From positions 1 through 52,951 of the forward strand of contig JAIUNY010000021.1 of the NCBI GenBank assembly GCA_020161505.1: DNA of 52,951 bases. The letters run 5' to 3'. Shown here piece by piece: positions 3,971 through 16,982 of this stretch (positions within the stretch are counted from its first letter, which is position 1; each line of letters starts with the position of its first letter). The notes beneath the pieces are model-generated. The model was not told the origin of the DNA, made no database searches, and was given only the letters and a program-made list of their open reading frames with translations. Position numbers and translations under genes: made by a program. This stretch comes from Armatimonadota bacterium. GTDB lineage: Bacteria > Armatimonadota > Fimbriimonadia > Fimbriimonadales > Fimbriimonadaceae.

Positions 3971-4819
3971 TCAGTCGCTCTCTTCTTCGAGACCATACAC
4001 CTGATGCTGCCGGAACCGTTCGGATTCGGTGGTGTCTTTGATGCCCTCGAGAACCGCGCGGCCTTCCCAGACTTTGGGCGCGGAGATGCCCATGAGGCGG
4101 GTGACGGTGGGGGCGACATCGAGGAGGGTGACGGGTTGCTGAATTTTGTGGCCCGTGGTGCAGCGGTAGCCCCACATGATGAACGGGACGGTCATATCCT
4201 CTGGCTCTTCGGTGCCATGAACCTTATCGTGGCCGCCGTGGTCGCTGGCGATGATGAAATCGACCGGGTGATGGAGGGCGATGAGAGCATCGACGAACCG
4301 TCCGACGCAGGAGTCGACCTGAGAGATGGCCTGGAGGTATTCGTCGCTCATCCATCCGTATTCGTGGCCGACCCAATCGGTGTGACCGAGATAGAGGAAA
4401 AGAAAATCGAACTCCTCGGCCGCCGCGCCACGGATCGCCATTTCTGCGACGTGGCTGTCGCCATCTGCGGTGTGAGCATTGTTGTTGAGATAGCAGACGT
4501 GGATGTGCTCCGGGTCGCCGAGATCGCGGAGCGGGGACCAGTTGCCGAACATCGCGGTCTGCTGACCCGACCTTGCCGCAACATCGAAAATGGAAGGCGG
4601 CACGTTCGGCCCGACGCGGAGTTCGTTGTTCAGGACTCCGTGCTTCATCGGGGCCACGCTCCGGAACATGGATTGATGGCAGGGAAGGGTGATGCTCGGC
4701 GTCACCGACTGGGCTTCCCAGCTGACGGAGCCGTCTCTGACCAATCGGTCTAGATTAGGCGTGGGGGCAAGTCGAATGCCATCGGGGCGCACGCCGTCGA
4801 TCGAGATCAGAGCGACCAT
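3971..4819 (-). CDS. Phosphodiesterase/nucleotide pyrophosphatase, alkaline phosphatase superfamily
   Basis: This 282-residue protein fits the type I phosphodiesterase/nucleotide pyrophosphatase family, two-metal enzymes that hydrolyse phosphodiester or phosphoester bonds. Visible ligands: Asp in ISIDGVRPD near the N-terminus, the nucleophile Thr in SVTPSITLPCHQSMF, HTDWVGHEYG in the middle, and SDHGGHD followed by the later His positions. No signal peptide is seen, so it is probably cytoplasmic or exported without a classical signal. Its start codon sits in the arm of a perfect inverted repeat. It follows ilvD by 50 bp on the same strand. Substrate cannot be told from sequence. Confidence 0.85.
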   Translation of the reverse strand: MVALISIDGVRPDGIRLAPTPNLDRLVRDGSVSWEAQSVTPSITLPCHQSMFRSVAPMKHGVLNNELRVGPNVPPSIFDVAARSGQQTAMFGNWSPLRDLGDPEHIHVCYLNNNAHTADGDSHVAEMAIRGAAAEEFDFLFLYLGHTDWVGHEYGWMSDEYLQAISQVDSCVGRFVDALIALHHPVDFIIASDHGGHDKVHGTEEPEDMTVPFIMWGYRCTTGHKIQQPVTLLDVAPTVTRLMGISAPKVWEGRAVLEGIKDTTESERFRQHQVYGLEEESD

Positions 4820-4846
4820 GGGTTGGTTTTACCTCTCATGGTCGCT
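4811..4846 (-). promoter_or_regulatory. Perfect 10-bp inverted repeat over the phosphodiesterase start codon
   Basis: AGCGACCATG (4811-4820) and CATGGTCGCT (4837-4846) are exact reverse complements separated by 16 bp. In the minus-strand RNA the 3' arm contains the start codon and next two codons (ATG GTC GCT), while AGAGG, the likely Shine-Dalgarno, lies in the loop. This could be a translation-control hairpin or a protein-binding operator. Confidence 0.5.
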
Positions 4847-4869
4847 CGGTTTGATGCGGATCGCGGGTT

Positions 4870-6543
4870 TTAGTGGGTGACGGCGCCTTCGCACGCCGGG
4901 CCGACGGATTTTGCATATTTGGCATAGCTGCCCCGTTCGGGCGCGGGGTTGGGGTTCACCCAGTTCGCGCGTCTCTCGGCGAGTTCCTCGTCAGTCAGAT
5001 CGACGCTGAGGACACCCGCTTCGGCATCGAGGGTGATGATGTCGCCGTCCTTCACGAGGGCAATCGGGCCACCGACTTGGGCTTCCGGCCCGACGTGTCC
5101 GACCATAAGACCGCGCGTGGCTCCGCTGAACCTTCCGTCGGTGAGGAGGGCGACATCGTATCCCATGCCCTGTCCGACAATCGCCGCTGTGACGCCGAGC
5201 ATTTCGCGCATCCCGGGGCCGCCTTTCGGGCCCTCGTAGCGGATCACCATCACGTCGCCGCGCTGGATTTCGCGGGCTTGGACGGCGGCCATGGCGGCTT
5301 CTTCGGAATCAAAAACTCGGGCCGGGCCGGTTTGTTTGAGTTTCTTGACTCCCGCGGTTTTGACGACTCCGCCCTCTGGGGCAAGATTTCCGCGCACCAC
5401 CACGAGTCCACCCGTCTCCGAGAGCGCACGGGTATGGGGGACGACGACATCTTGACCGACCGGTAAATAAACCTCTTTGAGGTTCTCTGCCATGGTTTTT
5501 CCGGTCACCGTCATGCAGTCTCCGTGGAGGGCACCCGCTTCGAGAAGGGCTTTGAGAACCACCGGAACACCCCCGATCTTGTGGAGATCCAGCATGACAT
5601 AGCGTCCTCCCGGTCGAAGATCGGCGAGGAGCGGGGTGCGCTCACTCACGCGCTGCACGTCGTCGAGCGTGATTTTCATGCCGAGCTCGTGGGCAATCGC
5701 GGGGAGGTGGAGGGCGATGTTGGTGCTTCCCCCCGTCGTCGCCGCGATCGCGATGGCGTTCTCGAAGGCTTCTTTGGTGAGAATGTCGCTGGGCTTGAGT
5801 CCAGATTTCAGCAGATTCATCACCTGGGTTCCAATATGGGTGAGCCACGGCTGACGCGAATCTGCATCTTCGGCAGGCGGCGATGTCGAACCAGGAAGCG
5901 CCATCCCGAGAGCCTCGGCGACACAGGCCATGGTGTTGGCGGTGTATTGCCCGCCGCAGGCTCCGGCTCCTGGGCAGACGGCGCACTCGACGGCGTGGAG
6001 CTCTTCGTCATTGATCGTTCCGGCGGCGTAGGCTCCGGCGGCTTCGAAGGCGTCTTGGATTGTCACGTCTTTGCCCTTGTGACGACCCGGCATGATGGTG
6101 CCGCCGTAGACGAAGATGCTGGGGAAGTTGAGCCGGGCCATCGCCATCAGCATTCCGGGAAGCGATTTGTCGCACCCGGCAACGCCGATGAGGGCGTCGT
6201 AGCAGTGGGCGCGCATCATGAGCTCGACAGAATCGGCGATGACTTCGCGGGAGATGAGAGAGGCCTTCATCCCCTTGTGGCCCATCGCGATTCCATCGCT
6301 GACAGAGATCGTGTTGAATCGGCGCGGAGTTCCTCCGGACGCGGCGACGGCGGTGGCGATCACCTTGCCCTGCTCATCGAGGTTGAGGTTGCAAGGCGTG
6401 GCTTCGCTCCAGACCGTGGCGACTCCGACGAAGGGCTGGGCGAGTTCTTTGTCTCCGAGGCCCATCGCGCGGAGCATGGCGCGGTTGGCGGTTTTGTCGG
6501 CACCTTCGGTGATGGTGCGGGATTGATGGCGGGGGTCAAACAT
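4870..6543 (-). CDS. ilvD: Dihydroxy-acid dehydratase
   Basis: A 557-residue enzyme of the IlvD/Edd family that removes water from 2,3-dihydroxy-isovalerate and 2,3-dihydroxy-3-methylvalerate, the third common step of valine and isoleucine synthesis. Three cysteines expected to hold the iron-sulfur cluster are visible: Cys51 (EATPCNLN), Cys124 (GCDKSLPGM) and Cys196 (PGAGACGGQY). This pattern matches the [2Fe-2S] branch. The C-terminal half has the usual GLMVGHVGPEA and substrate-loop motifs. It is the last gene of ilvBNCD, 56 bp after ilvC with a GC-rich hairpin in the gap. Expression should depend on the attenuator before ilvB. Confidence 0.97.
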   Translation of the reverse strand: MFDPRHQSRTITEGADKTANRAMLRAMGLGDKELAQPFVGVATVWSEATPCNLNLDEQGKVIATAVAASGGTPRRFNTISVSDGIAMGHKGMKASLISREVIADSVELMMRAHCYDALIGVAGCDKSLPGMLMAMARLNFPSIFVYGGTIMPGRHKGKDVTIQDAFEAAGAYAAGTINDEELHAVECAVCPGAGACGGQYTANTMACVAEALGMALPGSTSPPAEDADSRQPWLTHIGTQVMNLLKSGLKPSDILTKEAFENAIAIAATTGGSTNIALHLPAIAHELGMKITLDDVQRVSERTPLLADLRPGGRYVMLDLHKIGGVPVVLKALLEAGALHGDCMTVTGKTMAENLKEVYLPVGQDVVVPHTRALSETGGLVVVRGNLAPEGGVVKTAGVKKLKQTGPARVFDSEEAAMAAVQAREIQRGDVMVIRYEGPKGGPGMREMLGVTAAIVGQGMGYDVALLTDGRFSGATRGLMVGHVGPEAQVGGPIALVKDGDIITLDAEAGVLSVDLTDEELAERRANWVNPNPAPERGSYAKYAKSVGPACEGAVTH

Positions 6544-6599: not shown

Positions 6600-7610
6600 T
6601 TAGTCTTGGGGCGGCACTTTGTCGCTGATGAAGGGGATGAGGCTCCGGATTTCCGCCCCGACCTTCTCAACTTGATGATCACGTTCGGAGGCTCGTCGGG
6701 CGTTCATCACCGGGCGACCGGCTTCATTTTCAGCGATCCAATCTTGGGCAAACTTCCCACTTTGGATGTCCCCGAGGAGTGACTTCATCGCGGCGCGAGA
6801 TTGATCGTTGATGACCTGGTTCCCGGCAACATAGTCGCCCCACTCGGCGGTGTCGCTGATCGAGTAGCGCATCCAGTTGAGGCCGCCTTCGTAGAGGAGA
6901 TCGACGATGAGCTTGGTTTCGTGGAGGCACTCGAAGTAGGCAGCTTCGGGTTGGTAACCCGCTTCGACAAGGGTCTCAAATCCGGCCTTGATGAGGGCCG
7001 AGATGCCTCCGCAGAGAACCGCCTGCTCGCCGAAGAGGTCAGTTTCGGTCTCTTCTTTGAACGTGGTTTCGAGGAGCCCGGCGCGGGCGCAGCCAATTCC
7101 CCATGCATAGCTGAGGATTCGCTCGCGGGCATGCCCCGTTGCGTCCTGATGAATCGCGAAGAGGGCCGGCATCCCGGCGCCGTTGCTCACTTCGAATCGC
7201 AGTCGGTGGCCAGGGCCCTTGGGGGCGACCATGCCGACGTCCACGTTGGCGGGTGGATTGATCAGTCCATAATGAATATTGAACCCGTGAGCGAAGAGAA
7301 GAAGCTGCCCATCGCGAAGATGGGGGGCGACTTCGGTCTCGTAGATGCCTTTCATCGGCACGTCGGGGGTGCAGAACATCAGGACATCGGCCCACTTGGT
7401 GGCTTCGGCAACGGTGTGAACGCTCAGGCCCGCTGCTTCGGCTTTCGCTCGGCTTTTGCTGCCCTCGTGCAGTCCGACCGCGACTTGGCCGCCCGCGTCG
7501 TGGAGGTTCAAGGCGTGGGCATGGCCCTGGCTGCCATAGCCAATGATTGCGACTTTGAGACCCTTGATGATCTCCGGGTTGACATCTTTTTCGGTAAGGA
7601 CGGTAGCCAT
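6600..7610 (-). CDS. ilvC: Ketol-acid reductoisomerase (class I)
   Basis: A 336-residue NADPH-dependent enzyme that isomerises and reduces acetolactate and acetohydroxybutyrate, the second common step to valine and isoleucine. I start it at the ATG at 7610 ([11 protein letters not shown]), 4 bp after the ilvN stop; the open frame extends 25 codons further into ilvN, but that extension is low-complexity and unlike the family. Visible: the nucleotide-binding [18 protein letters not shown], the metal-binding [12 protein letters not shown] and [13 protein letters not shown]. The short C-terminus makes it class I. Cotranscribed with ilvB and ilvN. Confidence 0.97.
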
Positions 7611-7614
7611 GGGA

Positions 7615-8145
7615 TTATGCGCTGGTGGCAGCGAAGGTCGGGGAGGCGAGCTCGGACGGGATACGGTTTTCGGTGCGAAGGCCAACGACGCCCGTCCGCA
7701 CGACTTCTGTCACATGATACGGCCCAAGCATAGCAATAAACCGGTCGATGGACTTGGCGTCTCCACTGACTTCGACGGTTAGACTGTCTAGTCCAAAATG
7801 CACGATCTTGCCATCCGCAACGGCGAGCAGGTCGAGAATCTCACGTCGGTTGTTCGCGACTCCCGTCAGATGGATCAGGGCGAGTTCCCTCATCACGCTC
7901 GCGGTGAAGGGGAGGTCATCGACGCTGACGACATCGATCAGCTTCTGGAGCTGACCGACACATTGCTGGAGCACCTCATCGTCCCCGTTGACGACGAGAG
8001 TGACTCGGCTGAACCCTTCGACCTCGCAGTCTCCCGCGTTGAGGCTGGCGAGGTTGAACCCGCGACGACGAAACAGACTGACCAGTCTATTGAGGGTTCC
8101 GGCTTCGTTTTGAACCAGGGCTTGGATTGTGTGTTGTGATTTCAC
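7615..8145 (-). CDS. ilvN: Acetolactate synthase small (regulatory) subunit
   Basis: A 176-residue protein with an N-terminal ACT domain ([37 protein letters not shown] at about residues 5-41) and the C-terminal ALS_ss domain with [37 protein letters not shown]. In this family the subunit activates the catalytic subunit and carries the valine feedback site between ACT domains. Its first codons overlap the end of ilvB by 4 bp (ATGA), a standard coupling arrangement for the complex. Length is typical of the medium-sized form. Confidence 0.96.
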
Positions 8146-9863
8146 GGTTGCGCTCCCATCAAGGATTCAGCATCGGATCGGGCGAGGGCCGGATCCATGA
8201 TCAAGTTATCGTTGCTCGCTCCAGCGGCGACCATGGGGTAGACGTTTTCTTCCATCGCGACCACGAACTCCACGAGGCTCGGCCCCTTGGTGGTTCGCGC
8301 GGCCTCGACGGCAGCGGGCAAGTCCGCCGCGTTGTCGCATCGAACGAAGTGGACTCCGTAGGCTTCGGCGAGCTTCGCGTAGTCGGGGTTGCCCATCGAG
8401 GAGTGGCTTTGGCGGTCGTCGTAGAAGAGTTCCTGCCACTGACGAATCATGCCGAGGTAGCCGTTGTTGATGAGGGCGATGTTCACGTCGAGCTTGCACT
8501 CGAACGCGGTTTGCAGCTCTTGGAGCGTCATCTGGAAGCCGCCATCGCCGACAATCGCCCAGACCTCTTGGTCGGGGCAAGCGAACTTGGCCCCCATCGC
8601 GGCAGGGAACCCGAAGCCCATCGTGCCGAGTCCTCCGCTGGAGAGCCACTGGTAGGGGCGCTTGAACTGATAGAACTGGGCCGCCCACATCTGGTGCTGC
8701 CCGACATCGGTGCTGACAATCGCGTTGCCTCCCGTGCACTCGTTCAGACCTTTCATCACGTGACGGGCGAGGAATCGTCCATCTTCGGGGACCACCAGGG
8801 GATATTCCGCCTGCCACTGGCGAATTTCTCCCCACCAAGTTTTGCGCTTTGCTGGCTTGACCGCCTCAACGAACGCGGGCAGGTTGTGGGTGAGGTCTCC
8901 TGGAACGACATGCATCGTGCGGACGCACTTCCCGAACTCAGTGGGATCGATGTCGAAGTGGATGATCTCGGCTTTCGGGGCGAACCCGCTGGTTTTCCCG
9001 GTGAGACGGTCATCGAATCGGTTGCCGATTCCGATGACGAGATCGGCCTCTTGTACCGCGATCGTCGCGGCGGCTTCGCCATGCATTCCCATCATGCCAA
9101 GCGATCGAGGATCCTGTCGATCAATGGCTCCCAGGCCAAGGAGACTGTTGATGATCGGGAGATCCGCCTTCTCGGCAAGCTGGCGGATGAACGGCGCGGT
9201 CTCGCTCCAAATGACGCCTGCTCCAGCGATCGCGATCGGGCGCTCGGCTTGATTCAGCATCTCGGCGGCGCGCTCGATATCGGTCAGAGGAGCGGCACCA
9301 GGGATGGTGTAGCCGCGCCGATGCACGGTCTCTGGGAAGGGAGCGTCGGTGAGGGCTTGGAAGACATCTTTGGGGATATCCACGTGCACGGGGCCTTTGC
9401 GTCCGGTGTTGGCGAGATAGAATGCTTCCGCCATCACGTAGGGCAGATCGTCGACATTGGTGACGAGGTAGTTGTGCTTCGTGATCGGGATCGTGATGCC
9501 CTGGATGTCGACTTCCTGAAAGGCATCCTTGCCGATCGCCCAGCTGTTCACCTGTCCGGTGAGAACAAGCATGGGCACGGAGTCCATGATGGCGGTGGCG
9601 ATTCCGGTGACGAGGTTGGTTGCGCCGGGGCCGCTGGTGCCCAGGCAGACTCCGACTTTGCCCGTGGCGCGGGCGTAGCCGTCGGCCATGTGGGCGGCAC
9701 ACTGTTCGTGCCGGACGAGGATGTGGTCGATTTGCGGCCACTTCAACATTTCGTCGTAGAGGGGCAAAATCACCCCTCCGGGATATCCAAAGATCGTATC
9801 CACCCCATGCCGGGCAAGGGCTTCCATCACGACCTGCGAGCCTGTTCTTTTCTCCATGTTCAT
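8142..9863 (-). CDS. ilvB: Acetolactate synthase large (catalytic) subunit
   Basis: A thiamine-diphosphate and FAD enzyme of about 573 residues that condenses two pyruvates, or pyruvate with 2-oxobutyrate. Near the N-terminus are GYPGGVILPLYDEM and the catalytic-Glu segment VRHEQCAAHMADGYARATG. The C-terminal third has the diphosphate/Mg motif GDGGFQMTLQELQTA...NNGYLGMIRQW. The frame is also open from a GTG at 9875, and a second Met (MEKRTGSQ) starts at 9857. None of the three starts has a strong Shine-Dalgarno, and I chose the ATG at 9863. First structural gene of ilvBNCD, directly behind an attenuator terminator and a Val/Leu leader peptide. Confidence 0.96.
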   Translation of the reverse strand: MNMEKRTGSQVVMEALARHGVDTIFGYPGGVILPLYDEMLKWPQIDHILVRHEQCAAHMADGYARATGKVGVCLGTSGPGATNLVTGIATAIMDSVPMLVLTGQVNSWAIGKDAFQEVDIQGITIPITKHNYLVTNVDDLPYVMAEAFYLANTGRKGPVHVDIPKDVFQALTDAPFPETVHRRGYTIPGAAPLTDIERAAEMLNQAERPIAIAGAGVIWSETAPFIRQLAEKADLPIINSLLGLGAIDRQDPRSLGMMGMHGEAAATIAVQEADLVIGIGNRFDDRLTGKTSGFAPKAEIIHFDIDPTEFGKCVRTMHVVPGDLTHNLPAFVEAVKPAKRKTWWGEIRQWQAEYPLVVPEDGRFLARHVMKGLNECTGGNAIVSTDVGQHQMWAAQFYQFKRPYQWLSSGGLGTMGFGFPAAMGAKFACPDQEVWAIVGDGGFQMTLQELQTAFECKLDVNIALINNGYLGMIRQWQELFYDDRQSHSSMGNPDYAKLAEAYGVHFVRCDNAADLPAAVEAARTTKGPSLVEFVVAMEENVYPMVAAGASNDNLIMDPALARSDAESLMGAQP

Positions 9864-9946: not shown

Positions 9947-9979
9947 AAAAAAGCCTTCCCGGGTTTCCCAGGAAGGCTT
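9947..9979 (-). terminator. Attenuator terminator of the ilvBNCD operon
   Basis: On the minus strand AAGCCTTCCTGGG (9979-9967) pairs with CCCGGGAAGGCTT (9963-9951) through 13 pairs with one U-G wobble, a three-base loop AAA and a run of Us (9952-9947). It lies between the leader peptide and ilvB, where only regulated read-through would express the operon. Confidence 0.85.
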
Positions 9980-10076
9980 CGTTGTTGTTTGATTCGCGTT
10001 CCTGGGTTAGCCGGTTACTTGTACGACGAGTACAAGAAGGCTAAGGACAAGAACGAGGCTGACGACTTGGCCCAGG
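9967..10076 (-). promoter_or_regulatory. Alternative RNA pairings of the ilv attenuator
   Basis: Four competing segments are visible in the minus-strand RNA. Segment 1 is CCTGGG at 10076-10071, inside the leader peptide. Segment 2 is CCCAGGAA at 10006-9999, directly after the leader stop codon. Segment 3 is TTCCTGGG at 9974-9967, part of the terminator's 5' arm. Segment 4 is the terminator's 3' arm. Segment 2 pairs perfectly with segment 3 (8 bp, antiterminator) or with segment 1 (6 bp). A further hairpin CTTGTAC/GTACAAG (10036-10018) lies within the Val/Leu codons and could act as a pause site. Confidence 0.75.
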
Positions 10077-10093
10077 TTGACGCGAGAAATCAC
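10007..10093 (-). CDS. Branched-chain amino acid leader peptide (ilv attenuator)
   Basis: A 28-codon frame beginning with GTG (10093) and ending in TAA (10009-10007). After a short start (ISRVNLGQVV) it reads SLVLVLSLLVLVVQVTG: after the initiator, 17 of 27 residues are Val, Leu or Ile. The stop codon directly abuts the antiterminator segment. Such peptides sense charged tRNA-Val, tRNA-Leu and tRNA-Ile: a ribosome stalled in the Val/Leu run lets the antiterminator form, while one reaching the stop codon allows termination. No strong Shine-Dalgarno precedes the GTG, so the start is uncertain; the same frame is open upstream to 10270, but the upstream part is not enriched in these residues. Confidence 0.75.
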   Translation of the reverse strand: MISRVNLGQVVSLVLVLSLLVLVVQVTG

Positions 10094-10481
10094 CGGAGCA
10101 TCTGCGATGAGGCTCTGGCTTCGATTCCCGGTCTGAGGGGTCGTCGGCATTGGGGACAAGTGTGGCATGGCCCTGCGATGTTTTGCTTCAGGGAGGAGAT
10201 GGGGCAATGTGGTGAGTGTGTGGGTTTGCCAAAGAATCCACAGAATAGGCACTTGAACCAGGTGAGACATTTTGCCCGGCGCAGATCAGACGGAATCTTC
10301 TTTCGATCTGACCGAAAATCCGGGATTCCTGCGGCTCCCCGTATCTTTACTGGATGTTGTGTTAAGGTTTGGATTCTGACCTTGTCCCGGAGACTCGGTC
10401 TGTTGGGGGTGTGGTAGAGTTCCTGAGTCGGTCACTTGGTCGACGTCGCCCTTTGGGTGAATTTCTGGAGAAGGAGCATAA
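10094..10481. other. Divergent intergenic region between the ilv leader and the PEP-CTERM gene
   Basis: This 388-bp stretch must contain the promoters for the ilv transcript (minus) and the PEP-CTERM gene (plus). I could not identify a convincing -35/-10 pair for either. A clear Shine-Dalgarno (GGAGAAGGAG) stands before 10482. No other gene is supported here. Confidence 0.4.
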
Positions 10482-12623: not shown

Positions 12624-12698
12624 TGGTGCGCGGTACAGGATTTGAACCTGTGACCCCTACAGTGTCATTGTAGTGCTCTACCGCTGAGCTAACCGCGC
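12624..12698 (-). tRNA. tRNA-Val (GAC anticodon)
   Basis: A full cloverleaf is visible on the minus strand: acceptor GCGCGGT/ACCGCGC, D-arm GCTC...GAGC, anticodon stem CTACA/TGTAG around the loop ATGACAC (anticodon GAC, which reads GTC and GTT), T-arm ACAGG-TTCAAAT-CCTGT, discriminator A and an encoded CCA end. Valine is the amino acid most represented in the ilv leader peptide 2.5 kb away. Confidence 0.95.
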
Positions 12699-16592: not shown

Positions 16593-16853
16593 TTAGTCGC
16601 GAATCTTGTCGGCAATCGCTCGGCGGATCATCGTGTCGATGATCTCGTCGCCGCTCGGATTGTAGGTTCCGGCTTCGATTCGGGCCTTCAGGTCGTCGAT
16701 CATGTTCTCGCGATCCGGCATGTTGTTCACATCGCGGGTCACGCGAAGGATCAGCTCGGAGTCGGTGAGCTTAATGACCGCCGTGTCGACTTTTGCTTTC
16801 GAAACGGCATCGCCCTGTTTGATCTTTTCAATTTGTTCGTTTGAGATTTTCAC
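16593..16853 (-). CDS. flgM: FlgM-like anti-sigma-28 factor
   Basis: An 86-residue protein whose C-terminal half matches FlgM: DRENMIDDLKARIEAGTYNPSGDEIIDTMIRRAIAD, the helix-plus-'GxY' segment that binds sigma-28 and holds flagellar late genes off until the hook is complete. I chose the GTG at 16853 (VKISNEQIEKI) because AGAGAGG lies upstream at good distance and the length is right. The open frame runs 33 more codons upstream to an ATG at 16952 (MARRRRLRS), which would be unusually long and basic. A sigma-28-type promoter stands upstream. The motA/motB genes are 9 kb away. Confidence 0.8.
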   Translation of the reverse strand: MKISNEQIEKIKQGDAVSKAKVDTAVIKLTDSELILRVTRDVNNMPDRENMIDDLKARIEAGTYNPSGDEIIDTMIRRAIADKIRD

Positions 16854-16982
16854 GCTGTAGACCTCTCTTGATGCGATTCCTCGACTTGATAACCCGGCGG
16901 TCTCCGTGAGATCCGTGGCTTTGCGTGAGCGGAGTCGCCTCCGTCGTGCCATTTCATTCGAGGTCCTTGCGTCCTGGTATGA

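Follow-up and report, generated by a model that had tools for sequence, protein, structure and literature searches.

The ilvBN and ilvGMEDA operons of E. coli are controlled by ribosome-mediated attenuators, in which a leader peptide rich in branched-chain residues is combined with mutually exclusive antiterminator and terminator structures. Leader peptides upstream of ilvB have also been described in Actinobacteria (PMC1262725, PMC10272879, PMC11857589, PMC13236596), and leaderless translation initiation is discussed by the authors of the C. glutamicum ilvBNC work (PMC11857589, PMC10272879). The cys leaders of Mycobacterium show no obvious terminators (PMC1262725). To the knowledge of the authors of a 2010 survey, demonstrated cases of peptide leaders had earlier been confined to Proteobacteria and Actinobacteria, to which the survey added Firmicutes (PMC2965389). 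Our literature search, which covered a minority of subscription papers and is weak evidence to that extent, returned no paper combining Armatimonadetes with transcription attenuation or T-box, or Fimbriimonas with leader terms.

Here we describe a site upstream of the ilvBNCD operon of an Armatimonadota genome that is, with high confidence, a ribosome-mediated transcription attenuator of this operon. With it, peptide-leader attenuation of ilv operons would be known from a family of this phylum as well.

Anatomy of the ilvBNCD leader

The window, meaning the whole stretch of 52,951 nucleotides that was analysed, is part of a 3.14 Mb genome in 38 contigs. It carries a compact ilvBNCD operon on the minus strand, with a Val/Leu-rich leader frame located 144 nt upstream of ilvB. 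The features of the leader and the operon are as follows.

10159..10164, minus strand: candidate -10 box CACACT, weak, located 8 nt before ATG 10150 and preceded by TGC in the manner of an extended -10
10007..10150, minus strand: leader peptide ORF, likely starting at ATG 10150 (47 codons); previously proposed GTG start at 10093 (28 codons)
10071..10085, minus strand: segment 1, TCGCGT(caa)CCTGGG, within the leader ORF, complementary to segment 2 (candidate protector)
10016..10066, minus strand: control codon run (V V S L V L V L S L L V L V V Q V), V/L/I enrichment kept in 29/29 family loci, biased codons
9999..10006, minus strand: segment 2, CCCAGGAA, antiterminator strand, directly 3' of the stop codon, pairs with the terminator 5' arm
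9967..9979, minus strand: segment 3, terminator 5' arm AAGCCTTCCTGGG, from hairpin pairing and fold energy
9951..9963, minus strand: segment 4, terminator 3' arm CCCGGGAAGGCTT, from hairpin pairing and two-sided changes in relatives
9947..9952, minus strand: U tract of the intrinsic terminator, six T's
8142..9863, minus strand: ilvB, acetolactate synthase large subunit (Pfam TPP_enzyme N/M/C), start ATG 9863 or nearby
7615..8145, minus strand: ilvN, acetolactate synthase small subunit (Pfam ALS_ss_C, ACT), 4-nt overlap with ilvB
6600..7685, minus strand: ilvC, ketol-acid reductoisomerase (Pfam KARI_N, KARI_C), true start probably near 7610
4870..6543, minus strand: ilvD, dihydroxy-acid dehydratase (Pfam ILVD_EDD)

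The minus-strand frame at 10093-10007 translates as VISRVNLGQVVSLVLVLSLLVLVVQVTG followed by a stop, and valine, leucine and isoleucine make up 17 of the 27 residues after the start, just as a previous sequence-only reading had reported. The stop codon TAA (10009-10007) is followed at once by CCCAGGAA (10006-9999), which is the exact complement of TTCCTGGG within the terminator 5' arm. The hairpin AAGCCTTCCTGGG-AAA-CCCGGGAAGGCTT (9979-9951) consists of 13 pairs, one of them G-U, and its stem runs into six T's (9952-9947). Both the complementary segment adjoining the stop and the 13-pair terminator with its U tract had been claimed in that reading, and both are found as described. Folding of the terminator region gives -27.1 kcal/mol (z -3.9), and the region from the stop codon to the 5' arm forms an alternative helix at -11.8 (z -4.4), or -15.3 with the whole 5' arm; for the first two folds, none of 200 shuffles was as good. 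A terminator scan did not list the hairpin at 9979-9951, probably because the stem runs into the U tract. As expected, the most stable fold of the full-length RNA without a ribosome contains the terminator, so that the switch would depend on kinetics.

A scan of the complete window, on both strands, for a V/L/I-rich C-terminus together with a strong hairpin and antiterminator pairing returned this single site. An Rfam scan of the leader gave sub-threshold matches only (Phe_leader 18.5 bits versus a cut-off of 55), and no attenuator was seen upstream of trpE and pheA of the same genome. About 2.5 kb upstream of the ilv operon lies a tRNA-Val (GAC) gene (12624-12698, minus strand) whose product would read GTC and GTT, the main valine codons of the leaders; this is probably a coincidence. 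A c-di-GMP-I riboswitch is located at 16885-16960 (minus strand), slightly above the gathering score, and since it overlaps the 5' end of a 119-aa frame at 16593-16952, the true start of that frame is probably further downstream.

The site thus contains a short ORF rich in codons for the amino acids produced by the downstream operon, an intrinsic terminator between this ORF and the first gene (with a weak U tract in some relatives), and an antiterminator that excludes the terminator and is placed so that the position of a ribosome would decide between the two. From this anatomy and its conservation in relatives we infer how transcription, translation, termination and the response to amino acids would proceed. 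RNA polymerase would initiate at the leader ORF or a short way upstream of it, followed by a ribosome translating the leader peptide. When charged Val-, Leu- and Ile-tRNA are ample, the ribosome at the stop codon would cover segment 2, segments 3 and 4 would form the terminator and transcription would end before ilvB. When these tRNAs are short, the ribosome would stall upstream in the Val/Leu run, leaving segment 2 free to pair with segment 3, in which case no terminator would form and ilvBNCD would be transcribed. With no ribosome on the leader, segment 1 could hold segment 2 and favour termination, an arrangement that is strong in the genome of the window and not general.

Conservation, pairing and codon usage in the family

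Within a sample of 85 genomes of the family, ilvB was found at the cut-off in 30; one locus ends at a contig end, leaving 29 usable. A LeuA-like match is present in 85/85 genomes and an ilvB match at the cut-off is absent from 55/85; these 55 may import valine or rely on a different route. The same design, V/L/I-rich leader, stop, antiterminator segment and terminator, is found in all 29 ilvB loci with upstream DNA. Near the leader C-terminus, V/L/I account for 9-12 of 14 residues; the antiterminator segment, typically CCGGGAAG-like, follows within a few bases 3' of the stop, and the hairpin and then ilvB come after it. The distance from stop to terminator is 14-36 nt. At the U tract, 24/28 loci have at least 5 T in 8 and the other four have 4 T in 8. 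Pairing of segments 2 and 3 is weak in two loci (L122, L132).

The specificity of this pairing was assessed in 28 non-redundant loci by combining the 14 nt past each stop with the terminator arm of its own or of another locus. Segment 2 pairs with its own arm at a mean of -17.3 kcal/mol compared to -14.5 (sd 0.4) for permuted partners, and 0 of 10,000 permutations were as good, a figure that is not a strict probability because the loci are related. Such partner-specific pairing would be difficult to obtain otherwise than by covariation. The letters change with pairing kept in CCCAGGAA/TTCCTGGG (genome of the window), CTGGGAAGAC/GTCTTCCCAG, CCCCAGGAAG/CTTCCTGGGG and ATATCGGG/CCCGATAT, and the terminator itself shows two-sided, compensatory changes at 9 of 14 consensus pairs. 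A strict automatic rule recovers the structure in 23/31 sense regions versus 1/31 antisense regions, the 31 including L032 and the out-of-family L011, which is without the leader. The sequence-only reading had appealed to ilv attenuation logic and had tied this to an alignment of relatives and the presence there of a codon-rich peptide; it is supported by the 29/29 loci in which the V/L/I run, the position of the stop, the covarying antiterminator pairing and the terminator are all kept.

L032 (CAILEM010000101.1, a record named Armatimonadetes) carries a leader identical to that of one family locus, and this match assigns the family to Armatimonadota. Its gene order, by frame and sequence resemblance, is ilvB, ilvN, ilvC, one further gene and ilvD; the extra gene (4617-5417) has an N-terminus resembling an ABC transporter ATP-binding subunit. 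Upstream of leuA in the same family, no attenuator was found in the 23 loci with a locatable LeuA start motif (seven others are unplaced). In nearly all genomes the match between the LeuA of the family and the leuA model ends at about position 381 of 494 (L200-L227; G000:C3, C35), so that the C-terminal LeuA_dimer regulatory domain is missing.

An attenuator of this kind could act mainly via a protector helix between segments 1 and 2, on the pattern of the three-hairpin model for C. glutamicum with its anti-antiterminator (PMC11857589), and not by direct coverage at the stop codon. In the genome of the window, the CCTGGG of the leader (10076-10071) is complementary to CCCAGG, and TCGCGT..CCTGGG pairs with CCCAGGAACGCGA at -20.7 kcal/mol (p 0.005 versus dinucleotide shuffles). 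The complementarity of CCTGGG to the antiterminator segment, part of the earlier claim, therefore stands for this genome; it is not consistently conserved, the duplex reaching p < 0.05 in 3/28 loci only, with a modest permutation signal (19 of 10,000). On these counts the helix is not upheld as a general part of the attenuator. The first paired base of segment 2, by contrast, lies 0-3 nt past the stop in 27/28 loci, a nearly universal placement that favours direct masking by a ribosome at the stop codon, and we regard action mainly through the protector as unlikely.

Across 28 leaders, L/I/V account for 316 of the 504 residues encoded by the final 18 codons (L 180, I 69, V 67), while F occurs once and M, W and Y not at all. 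The Val/Leu signal proposed earlier is borne out as to these two amino acids and not as to its restriction to them; judged by composition, the leader peptides would sense Leu, Ile and Val jointly. The codons are also strongly biased relative to ilvB at the same loci: CTT makes up 53% versus 16% and CTG 4% versus 29% of leucine codons, ATT makes up 87% versus 26% of isoleucine codons, and the differences reach p 1e-36 for Leu, 6e-25 for Ile and 8e-6 for Val. Attenuation theory predicts a particular choice among synonymous regulatory codons (PMC1183508); the choice may also have a structural cause, in that it keeps strong pairs within the leader few. With its length of about 18 residues, the V/L/I run could pass for a single membrane helix, as would be expected if the ORF were the gene of a small hydrophobic membrane protein with its own terminator that is a chance neighbour of ilvB. 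Its near lack of Phe, Met, Trp and Tyr marks the run as a branched-chain signal and not a generic hydrophobic helix, and together with the codon bias, the covariation of the segment just past the stop with the terminator arm and the occurrence of the leader only before ilvB, this makes a membrane protein very improbable.

Leader start and distribution of tRNA-charging sensors

A TANNNT box lies 6-13 nt ahead of an ATG or GTG giving a leader of 31-43 codons in 27/28 loci versus 3/148 antisense frames, a comparison in which the 27/28 is somewhat favourable, the leader starts having been chosen partly for this motif, and in which the antisense control had the same freedom. The sole exception to the strict motif among the 28 loci is the genome of the window, with CACACT, and a promoter scan at the window site gave no sigma-70 consensus. 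TTGACA-like matches (at least 4/6) at the expected spacing occur in 46% compared to 10% of background positions. The relatives show longer leaders starting just behind the -10 box, which casts doubt on the 28-codon GTG start of the sequence-only reading; the leader of the genome of the window is probably longer, starting at ATG 10150 with 47 codons. Given the short distance from the box to the leader start, the 5' UTR would be absent or a few nt in length, and the leader peptide is probably leaderless or nearly so.

In other families of the phylum, 0/60 ilvB upstream regions have a peptide-leader attenuator, and 22/60 contain a sense-strand T-box with an E-value of at most 6e-10 (8 + 6 + 8; L137, L143, L150, L155 and 18 other loci). 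No match to the T-box (RF00230) was found in the window or in 85 family genomes, in a search run with stricter filters on many of the genomes and with a control that matched in B. subtilis. That the leader is itself a T-box or another metabolite riboswitch with an incidental ORF, a thought invited by the T-boxes of the other families, is scarcely credible in view of this result, of the lack of an Rfam aptamer at the site and of the 14-36 nt between stop and terminator, too little space for an aptamer.

One phylum would thus use either of two tRNA-charging sensors for the same operon. Exchanges of a T-box for a leader peptide, or the reverse, have been described between phyla and, within Firmicutes, for hisS (PMC2965389). 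We lean towards a family-wide attenuator built on leaderless leader peptides, with transcription and translation starting at the first codon, that replaced or alternated with the T-box serving this operon elsewhere in the phylum, an in-phylum exchange of sensors.

Comparison with described attenuators

The phylum would offer a natural case of the same operon under a T-box in some families and under the control of a translating ribosome in one other family. With about 30 natural variants that have diverged, the choice of codons, the position of the stop and the strength of the helices can be compared across loci. The start, being probably leaderless, raises the testable question of how close the coupling of transcription and translation is from the first nucleotide onwards.

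Like the E. coli ilvBN and ilvGMEDA attenuators, the site combines a leader rich in cognate residues with an exclusive antiterminator and terminator ahead of an operon of the same function. Unlike them, it is without an Rfam leader match, and its leader peptide is probably leaderless or nearly so, with a stop directly adjoining the antiterminator strand. The mycobacterial polycysteine attenuators are reported to have a leaderless, amino-acid-sensing ORF (Canestrari 2020), as is probable for the site in the window, and differ in sensing cysteine. The C. glutamicum ilvBNC three-hairpin attenuator (PMC11857589, PMC10272879) shares leader peptide, antiterminator and terminator; its anti-antiterminator, a modelled part there, has a candidate counterpart in the genome of the window that is not consistently conserved in the Armatimonadota family. 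M. tuberculosis ilvB1NC (PMC13236596) belongs to another phylum and has a leader of 166 nt for which the short RNA was measured; it likewise has a uORF rich in branched-chain residues before ilvB-N-C, and there, as proposed for the site in the window, the antiterminator is masked by a ribosome that has reached the stop codon, so that the terminator can form.
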